This document shows, in pieces, positions 61,238 through 63,549 of a stretch of DNA of 64,000 bases. Made by a program: the position numbers and the translations under genes. Within the stretch, counting starts at the first letter, position 1. The number at the start of each line of letters is the position of its first letter. The notes under the pieces were generated by a model that was not told the origin of the DNA, ran no database searches, and was given only the letters and a program-made list of their open reading frames with translations. The DNA comes from an uncultured cyanobacterium (lineage in GTDB: Bacteria > Cyanobacteriota > Cyanobacteriia > Cyanobacteriales > Geitlerinemataceae), in assembly GCA_937899645.1 (NCBI GenBank), contig CALCCD010000109.1, positions 1 through 64,000 on the forward strand, given 5' to 3'.

Positions 61238-61600
61238 AGCGGCGCTCTTCCTGGGTTCGAGCGAAAGTTAGGGCGGCAGGGTTCGGGCACGGATACACGC
61301 CAGAGGAGTTCGATTACTGCTCCCATCATCGCGGCAATTTATCTCTGCCGCCACTGGCTCAGCTTTCTGCTTGGCCCGACCGTACGCAAAACTCGATGCA
61401 GGCAGCGAAGTCCGAGCGACGGTCGTTATTTTCCGTTTTTCCACCTCGTCCGACTGGGTCAGAACTCGCGGCGTTTACTGCTTTCTCCGTAGTCTCCGAA
61501 CGCCTGCGCTTTATCGGCGCTTTATAAACTCCGCGTTCGTGTGAAGAGTGGATGAAGCTCAGGGATTTTACGGTCACCTTGCGCCGCCGATCGGCTAATC
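61238..61600. other. spacer with no gene seen
   Basis: Between the conserved gene and the first PEP-CTERM-like gene. Only short frames; no repeats. The regulatory palindrome follows at 61601. Confidence 0.5.
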
Positions 61601-61618
61601 TTCCGAAGAAGTACGGAG
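61601..61618 (+). promoter_or_regulatory. palindrome upstream of the first PEP-CTERM-like gene
   Basis: TTCCGAAGAAGTACGGAG ends 50 nt before the ATG at 61668. It matches the site before the second gene (62757) in the TTCCG, AAG and TACGGA parts, at exactly the same distance from the ATG. Confidence 0.6.
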
Positions 61619-61667
61619 ACAAAACAGTCGTCTTCGTCGTCAGACCATCAAGCTAGAGGTAGCAGAC

Positions 61668-62276
61668 ATGCGATGTTTAGTACGAATAGCTGTGATGTCA
61701 GGTGCGATCGCGATTGGATTGGGAAGCCCCGCTGTTGCGGGCACGATGTTTCGCTCGGTAGATTTGCCCGAACCGAGCGCGAGTGATTCGGAGTGGCTGC
61801 ACGAGGCTGGTAACCCGACGCACTCCAGCGCAGACGATCTGGGCAGTGCGGCGATCGTCAAAAGTGCGCTCTCGTTACCCCAGACGGGCGAACCACACAG
61901 CTGGACGCGTTCGGGACGTGAGGTTGAAGCCGTAATCGCCTTGGTTAAAGCGCAGCTCGATCGCGTTCTCAGCGTCGATCGTCTGCTCGAGCGCGAGCCG
62001 ACCGCTGTGACCGGCCCTGCGTATTTCCTAGCCCCATCCGTTCCCGACGCCCCGGGCAAGACCGCCGCGCTTGCGGAAACCGCCGCGGAAACCACTGAAG
62101 CGCCGCAGCCGGAGGGCCTGCCTCCGGAGGCGACTCCCACAGACGACTCCGATCGCGCTGACGCCGAAGGAAATATCGAGACAAGAGCCAGTACGGACGG
62201 TCTGGAAACGGGAGCGGCGCTGGGTCTGCTCGCGATCGGTTCGCTCCTGGCCGCGCGGGCACGACGCCAGGTCTAG
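61668..62276 (+). CDS. exported protein with PEP-CTERM-like tail lacking the PEP motif
   Basis: The 202-residue product has a signal peptide (MRCLVRIAVMSGAIAIGLGS, cleavage near AVAG) and a C-terminal tail LETGAALGLLAIGSLLAARA ending RRQV: a membrane segment followed by Arg, as in PEP-CTERM proteins, but with LETG in place of VPEP. The same ALGLLA-GSL segment appears in the neighbour at 62824. The middle part is low-complexity, acidic, Ala/Pro-rich, with no domain. It may be a degenerate exosortase substrate or use a different sorting signal. The upstream palindrome is shared with the neighbour, which supports joint regulation. Confidence 0.7.
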   Translation: MRCLVRIAVMSGAIAIGLGSPAVAGTMFRSVDLPEPSASDSEWLHEAGNPTHSSADDLGSAAIVKSALSLPQTGEPHSWTRSGREVEAVIALVKAQLDRVLSVDRLLEREPTAVTGPAYFLAPSVPDAPGKTAALAETAAETTEAPQPEGLPPEATPTDDSDRADAEGNIETRASTDGLETGAALGLLAIGSLLAARARRQV

Positions 62277-62487
62277 TGCCGTCGGCTTACCTCGGAAGCT
62301 CTACGGGGCGGGTCTCGCAAAACAGGCCGGGAGTTATCCTCCTGACGGGGGCTAGGGTCGCGAGACTTTTACGGCAATACTTCTGAAAACAGAGTCATCG
62401 TCGTTCCTCCGCTCTTTTGAAAGTGGGGGAATTTGGCGATCTTGTCGTCATGTAAACGTACGCGTTATCTCGATCTCTCCTGAATCT

Positions 62488-62527
62488 AAAAATCTCCCGA
62501 GATCTTGCTGAGATCGGGAGATTTTTT
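62488..62527 (+). terminator. intrinsic terminator between the PEP-CTERM-like genes
   Basis: AAAATCTCCCG pairs with CGGGAGATTTT, with an inner ATCT/AGAT pairing and a 2-nt bulge, followed by TTTTTTG. Confidence 0.85.
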
Positions 62528-62756
62528 GTGCTGACCGTAATTCTCTACAGCAGCAGTTTTCTCGATCGGTCTTCAGAATAGCACCGAAAGATTAAGACCT
62601 TATGTAGATTGCGGGGATTTTAAATGCCTTTGTAGACACCTTTGCATATTCTTGCGAATTGATTCTTTGTCGCATCTTTATAAAAGTCACTTTTTCTTGA
62701 AGACTGCGTAAAGTCATTCGGCTTTGCGTGCACTTGAGAGAACTTGGGAATAGATT

Positions 62757-62774
62757 TTCCGTATAAGTACGGAA
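62757..62774 (+). promoter_or_regulatory. palindrome upstream of the second PEP-CTERM gene
   Basis: TTCCGTATAAGTACGGAA is a 7-4-7 inverted repeat (TTCCGTA/TACGGAA). It ends 50 nt before ATG 62824, the same spacing as at 61601. Confidence 0.7.
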
Positions 62775-62823
62775 GCAGCTTTTAGAACCTCCGTAGAAAA
62801 ACAGAAGCTTTAAGGTACGTAAA

Positions 62824-63549
62824 ATGCAAAACTTTGTGCGCGTTGCGATTACGGCTGGTGTGGCAGCGATCGGTTTGGGCCTCTCTACGGCTGCTCACGC
62901 CGGAACGCTCGTTGAGAAGAAAGTTGATTTCCGTGGATGGTGGCGGGCTGACGCATCCGAGCCGATCGATCTAGGCAACGGACTGATGCTGACGGTGACG
63001 GCTGGGGTGCACTCCGGCGGCCCGAGCGCGAATGCGCCTCTGAACGTCGTCCGTGATGCGAAGGTAACTCAAAACGCCAAAGGCTTGGGCGTAAAGAACT
63101 TCCCGATCGTCGACTCGAAAGAGCTCGACGGTTCTGGCTTTCCGGAGTTCCTGCGCTTTACGTTCTCCGAGGCTATCGATCTTAGCTCGGTGTTCTTTTC
63201 CAAGGCCGATGGGAAAGACGAGTTCGATGTGGGCATCGACGGTATCGACATGCACATCAACGACACGTTCGGCACCGATCGCATTCGCAGCTTTGCGCGG
63301 GTTCCCACACGGAAGGGTCCCCTGTATAAGGTGGACTTCTCGGGCGGCGTCGATCTCGCCGGTGACGGCACGAACGCCCTGGTTCCGGCAGAAGGTACGG
63401 TCTTCGACTTTTACACGACCGACAAGGGAGACGACTACCGTATTGCGAAGATGAAAATCGTCCACGAAGTACCCGAACCGGCGACGGCGCTGGGGCTGCT
63501 GGCGGTCGGTTCGCTGGCGATCGCGCGCGGACGCAAGCGCGACAGCTAG
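62824..63549 (+). CDS. PEP-CTERM exported protein
   Basis: The 241-residue product has a signal peptide (MQNFVRVAITAGVAAIGLGL, cleavage near AHAG), a beta-rich body with segments such as LMLTVTAGVHSGGPSANAPL and FLRFTFSEAIDLSSVFFSKA, and a canonical PEP-CTERM tail: VPEPATALGLLAVGSLAIAR followed by GRKRDS. PEP-CTERM proteins are handled by exosortase, which removes the tail at the membrane; no exosortase gene is in the window. The body is of the type that forms small extracellular beta-sandwiches and may belong to the matrix or surface. Paired with the gene at 61668 by promoter and tail. Confidence 0.88.
   Translation: MQNFVRVAITAGVAAIGLGLSTAAHAGTLVEKKVDFRGWWRADASEPIDLGNGLMLTVTAGVHSGGPSANAPLNVVRDAKVTQNAKGLGVKNFPIVDSKELDGSGFPEFLRFTFSEAIDLSSVFFSKADGKDEFDVGIDGIDMHINDTFGTDRIRSFARVPTRKGPLYKVDFSGGVDLAGDGTNALVPAEGTVFDFYTTDKGDDYRIAKMKIVHEVPEPATALGLLAVGSLAIARGRKRDS

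Follow-up and report, generated by a model that had tools for sequence, protein, structure and literature searches.

A palindrome in front of two adjacent cyanobacterial genes and its enrichment ahead of PEP-CTERM genes across Cyanobacteriales

Regulatory elements in front of PEP-CTERM genes, which encode substrates of exosortases, have been described from Proteobacteria. A 2006 survey, in which upstream regions of A. variabilis were among those pooled, found a conserved upstream motif in Proteobacteria only; this motif lay ahead of 99 of 167 PEP-CTERM genes and was taken as a regulator site, and the PrsK/PrsR pair together with a -24(GG)/-12(GC) sigma-54 promoter was likewise reported for Proteobacteria only (PMC1569441). 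Several cyanobacterial sites provide further points of comparison: the CRP site TGTGA-N6-TCACA (PMC2633013), the LexA site AGTACWNWTGTACT and the NtcA site GTAN8TAC (PMC3091678, PMC3898017), and the SigJ J-Box GGGaAtacT of hormogonium genes (PMC6495340). Pilus genes have been connected with CRP, for which sites 143–371 nt upstream are reported. In N. punctiforme, several PEP-CTERM genes are hormogonium-induced and SigJ-dependent without a J-Box, indicating indirect control (PMC12188702). Here, we describe a palindrome, TCCGTA-N4-TACGGA, in front of two adjacent genes for cell-surface proteins of an uncultured member of the Geitlerinemataceae, denoted gene 1 and gene 2. In contrast to the earlier conserved PEP-CTERM site, which the 2006 survey found in Proteobacteria only (PMC1569441), this dyad is cyanobacterial and occurs order-wide, before a subset of the genes.

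Like the PrsK/PrsR site, the palindrome is a conserved element that precedes many PEP-CTERM genes, though not all of them, at variable distance. The proteobacterial site, however, consists of two motifs roughly 63 nt apart, whereas the element here is a compact dyad of other sequence, and TTTACA, the end of the 17-nt proteobacterial motif 1, is absent from the 200 nt before either ATG. The CRP site likewise spans 16 bp, as a dyad of two 5-bp arms around 6 bp, but its half-site is TGTGA and that of the palindrome TCCGT, so that the two share the 5-6-5 geometry only. LexA and NtcA sites are likewise dyads with GTA/TAC elements; here, GTA-N4-TAC is flanked by TCC and GGA, and the palindrome belongs to neither class. 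The J-Box resembles it as a cis element of a surface and motility programme but is not palindromic. Gene 2 has GGGAATAGA at 62746–62754, which lacks the conserved final T of the J-Box, and no J-Box lies before gene 1.

The two sites and their genes

The locus comprises the following features.

61601–61618, + strand: palindrome in front of gene 1, TTCCGAAGAAGTACGGAG, matching TCCGTA-N4-TACGGA at 11 of 12 positions, spacer GAAG
61668–62276, + strand: gene 1 (202 aa), encoding a signal peptide and a PEP-CTERM-like tail in which LET replaces PEP
62488–62526, + strand: strong terminator-like hairpin between genes 1 and 2 (-21.5 kcal/mol, z -5.6)
62757–62774, + strand: palindrome in front of gene 2, TTCCGTATAAGTACGGAA, exact TCCGTA-N4-TACGGA with 7-bp arms, spacer TAAG
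62790–62805, + strand: weaker second copy, TCCGTAGAAAAACAGA, 10 of 12 positions, 32 bp 3′ of the main gene 2 site and ending 18 nt before the ATG
62824–63549, + strand: gene 2, 241-aa PEP-CTERM protein (PF07589, 22.2 bits; TIGR02595, 19.6 bits)

Both main palindromes, first noticed in a sequence-only reading of this DNA, are real and end at -50 of their ATGs (61668 and 62824). The gene 2 site is fully palindromic, whereas the gene 1 site amounts to TCCG..CGGA with one inner pair broken. The two agree in register at 15 of 17 bases. Among 20,000 Markov-simulated pairs, 3 matched at 14 or more of the 17 positions at the same spacing, as did 59 of 200,000 pairs of segments drawn at random from the window (the whole 64,000-nt stretch of DNA analysed). 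The same reading held that nothing else nearby carries the motif. This is correct for the 17-mer, of which the window holds no other copy with three or fewer mismatches, but not for the inner 16-mer, which recurs with two mismatches at 62790–62805. Defined by its two half-sites and a spacer of 4 nt, the order-wide element described below includes both copies, that of gene 2 exactly and that of gene 1 at 11 of 12 positions.

Gene 2 encodes a C-terminal PEP motif, a transmembrane helix and a basic end, and scores above both family cut-offs (PF07589, 22.2 versus 20.7 bits; TIGR02595, 19.6 versus 16 bits). Gene 1 has no family match at E values up to 10 and is not a PEP-CTERM member by these models. 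Its tail (62186–62276) has LETG at the PEP position and may represent a sorting signal that has decayed or been altered in a paralogue. The two genes had been taken as the only ones with a PEP-CTERM-type tail, which is true within the window; the genome, however, contains about 21 PEP-CTERM matches and one exosortase over cut-off, and gene 1 fits no PEP-CTERM model. Because of the terminator-like hairpin between them, the two genes are probably separate transcription units.

The similarity of the two loci extends beyond the palindromes.

61508–61733, + strand: 5′ block of gene 1, from -160 to about +66, aligning in register with gene 2
61520–61528, + strand: CTTTATAAA block ahead of gene 1, a possible promoter element, in register with gene 2
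62664–62889, + strand: 5′ block of gene 2, homologous to the gene 1 block
62676–62684, + strand: CTTTATAAA block ahead of gene 2, a possible promoter element, in register with gene 1

The upstream regions from -200 to -1 align with a score of 21, against a shuffle mean of 9.6 (reached by 0 of 1,000 shuffles), and the part 5′ of the motif (-200 to -69) with 15.5 against 8.6 (2 of 1,000), with no significant similarity beyond -200 or from the motif to the ATG. Within the shared region, conservation is highest in the motif block (15 of 17 bases; 17 of 20 at -70 to -51). Between the encoded proteins, similarity is significant in the signal peptide and the tail but not in the middle. These alignments show genes 1 and 2 to be paralogues, and the simplest reading is that a gene was duplicated in tandem together with its control region and the copies then diverged: one ancestral gene passed its promoter region, site, spacing and signal peptide to both adjacent copies, and within this inherited region the palindrome changed less than its surroundings. 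The equal spacing is accounted for by the common 5′ region of the paralogues, and it therefore does not count as independent evidence for an operator at fixed distance. The syntenic place in congeners holds neither gene, and neither 59 related genomes nor the species genomes scanned yielded a full-length relative of gene 2. The CTTTATAAA block, which stands at -148 relative to each ATG, is possibly a promoter -10 region.

Genome-wide, the frequency of the motif does not exceed chance expectation, and it shows no enrichment. A search for TTCCGTAN4TACGGAA with up to two mismatches gave 10 sites, compared with 4 for the reversed control. Among roughly 19 other PEP-CTERM genes scanned, none has the motif at 40–60 nt, and the best site within 450 nt is a single 10/12 match at 218 nt. 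The spacing is thus not kept in the other PEP-CTERM genes of the genome, and an operator at fixed distance serving all of them is ruled out by its absence at 40–60 nt and the lack of a genome-wide excess. In its own genome, only the two adjacent paralogous genes carry the motif, which is almost unique to the pair.

The palindrome across Cyanobacteriales

In 110 Cyanobacteriales genomes, 118 exact copies of TCCGTA-N4-TACGGA were counted, compared with 10 of the reversed control; two congeneric genomes have 11–12 copies of the 16-mer each. A looser search of 13 genomes of the same family gave matches far above control in several (for example, 25 versus 2), many of them TCCGTA-N4-TACGGA. The exact 18-mer TTCCGTAN4TACGGAA was found in 18 of 291 genomes across the class, in mixed contexts and with one PEP-CTERM hit, L054; the shorter 16-mer was the informative form. 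When exact sites were read in context, 15 fell within long reading frames and 64 did not. Among the latter, six (L177, L181, L193, L196, L200 and L210) lie ahead of genes whose PEP-CTERM character is supported by family models or a PF07589 scan, where about 0.2 would be expected. This count leaves out L054, whose PEP motif was recognized by eye only and whose site, part of a longer inverted repeat, may be a terminator, and L204, which encodes a phytase-like protein without a PEP-CTERM match. A literature search by the motif letters, with subscription papers largely beyond its reach, found no description of TCCGTA-N4-TACGGA.

TCCGTA-N4-TACGGA is strongly and specifically enriched ahead of a subset of PEP-CTERM genes, with variable spacing, across the order. 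Within 450 bp upstream of 94 PEP-CTERM genes from ten site-bearing genomes, 23 genes have a site matching at least 10 of 12 positions, 9 at least 11 and 5 all 12; these genomes were picked for carrying the palindrome (G008 was added as a family member) and include congeners and close relatives, so that the counts are not fully independent. For the same 94 genes, 180 permuted half-sites gave a median of 1, the best other than the motif reaching 6, and other spacer lengths gave 0–2; the five exact sites compare with 0.036 expected from the density of those genomes. Sites number 27 in 41.5 kb of upstream sequence; the remainder of these loci, which is mostly coding, has 5 in 132 kb, and other loci from the family have 2 in 144 kb. 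The controls were permuted half-sites, other spacer lengths, the remainder of these loci and other loci from the family, and the starts of scanned genes were chosen by a simple signal-peptide score. An unselected set of 35 PEP-CTERM genes gave 6 matches and rank 1 of 180, a weaker agreement, and the motif also ranked first in an earlier mixed set of 55 that included the seed site. Sites before PEP-CTERM genes lie 35–431 nt from the start. Thus, the proposal of a regulatory palindrome for PEP-CTERM genes holds at the level of the order, for a subset (23 of 94), but its fixed spacing, its exclusivity and its extension to the genome of origin do not.

Nature of the element

Variation among the sites bears on how the palindrome may act. 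Of the changes in the arms, 37 affect one side only and 2 are mirrored; the spacer, which was not scored in matching, is A or T at 105 of 116 positions (90%), compared with a local A+T content of 59.6%; and 20 second sites lie within 60 bp of another, where about 2.5 would be expected. The one-sided changes, the A/T-rich spacer and the clustered second sites therefore favour a protein-bound DNA dyad over an RNA hairpin. On this sequence evidence, we consider it probable that the palindrome is the operator of a dimeric transcription factor controlling a pilus and surface regulon that is not confined to exosortase substrates. The putative regulator would bind TCCGTA-N4-TACGGA, and a single such protein would presumably act throughout, on transcription. 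A CRP/FNR-type protein is a candidate, no more, by analogy, because the 16-bp dyad with its 5-bp outer arms (TCCGT-N6-ACGGA) shares the site geometry of the CRP superfamily.

Alternatively, the palindrome in this genome could be a relic that was copied with a gene and its upstream region and has no present function there. The in-register alignment over roughly 160 nt, which extends outside the motif, would fit such an origin, as would the lack of the motif before the other PEP-CTERM genes of the genome and of any genome-wide enrichment. However, the motif block is better conserved than the rest of the shared region and coincides with the consensus enriched ahead of PEP-CTERM genes of other genera, and gene 2 has an exact copy with a second copy nearby; we therefore regard a functionless relic as rather unlikely.

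An RNA hairpin in the 5′ untranslated leader, acting on translation or message stability, seems distinctly improbable. The gene 2 copy does fold into an 8-bp hairpin (-7.8 kcal/mol), and a TATAAA-containing upstream block common to both genes could set the start of transcription before the site, but a hairpin is at odds with the one-sidedness of 37 of the 39 arm changes, the weaker stem of the gene 1 copy, the fixed length and A/T-richness of the spacer, the second copies nearby and sites up to 431 nt from the start. More doubtful still is a promoter part for a special sigma factor, with the palindrome framing a -10 box. At the pilM loci L165 and L166, the site, 17 nt ahead of the ATG, includes TATAAA, and the gene 2 site contains TATAAG; the equivalent in gene 1, however, is AAGAAG, the inner four bases are in general A/T-rich without a fixed box, sites with dyad symmetry occur at 35–431 nt, and a scan for sigma-70-type promoters gave no match. 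A strictly dedicated operator for exosortase substrates at fixed distance, as the sequence-only reading proposed from the identical distance of the two sites, is hardly tenable: enrichment ahead of PEP-CTERM genes elsewhere agrees with it, but the site is absent from the other PEP-CTERM genes of its own genome, varies in spacing elsewhere and also precedes pilM, sigF and adhesin genes.

We also considered helical phasing (about 10.5 bp) of tandem sites. With loose partners, R was 0.59, a value reached by 4 of 5,000 random sets, but the signal disappeared with stricter partners and was weakened by orthologous pairs; it is suggestive only and was not relied on.

Genes beyond exosortase substrates

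Exact sites precede pilM in two families, in one of them at 15–17 nt from the ATG, and sigF in the Sodalinema group. SigF has been linked to pilA expression, the exoproteome and exopolysaccharide (PMC7690835). A scan upstream of sigF in 80 named genomes gave 14 matches (rank 1 of 180), the site being exact in Phormidium OSCR, P. willei and Geitlerinema P-1104, among others; matches also extend to the more distant Lyngbya aestuarii (exact) and to Microcoleus. RTX, TPS-domain, chemotaxis-receptor (MCP) and M23-peptidase genes also lie behind exact sites, and glycosyltransferase genes follow the palindrome as well. With pilM, sigF, RTX/TPS adhesin and chemotaxis genes among its targets, the palindrome is not dedicated to exosortase substrates. 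The listed targets also include the housekeeping genes uvrA, scpA and invertase; therefore, either the regulon is mixed or some sites are due to chance.

Tentatively, a single undescribed regulator acting through TCCGTA-N4-TACGGA may connect sigF with the assembly of type IV pili and with some of the surface proteins sorted by exosortase, although we hold this to be somewhat short of an even chance. If true, Cyanobacteriales would possess an order-wide motility and surface regulon with a previously undescribed master site. The 16-bp dyad common to PEP-CTERM, pilM and sigF genes offers a bait for the missing regulator, and the question of control can be tested directly in cultured strains such as Lyngbya aestuarii and Phormidium willei.

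Some further arrangements were observed around individual sites. In the Sodalinema group (L124, L125, L128, L211, L213 and L215), the palindrome is located between sigF and a divergently oriented gene whose protein, MELTYLDSNSWLLDFDGCRILLDPWLVGP.., looks metal-dependent-hydrolase-like by eye; the half-sites are the same in several species and the spacer differs. At L127 and L144, the palindrome precedes a gene for a protein starting MNSDWIFxSIDxxxPFEVCLYHQVVPLSMEGSRIYLG, which by eye resembles the N-terminal domain of PilB/GspE. At L156, L157 and L158, from three genomes of one family, it is found some 340 nt ahead of a gene for a response regulator and is accompanied, at a distance of 64 bp, by a weaker second copy.
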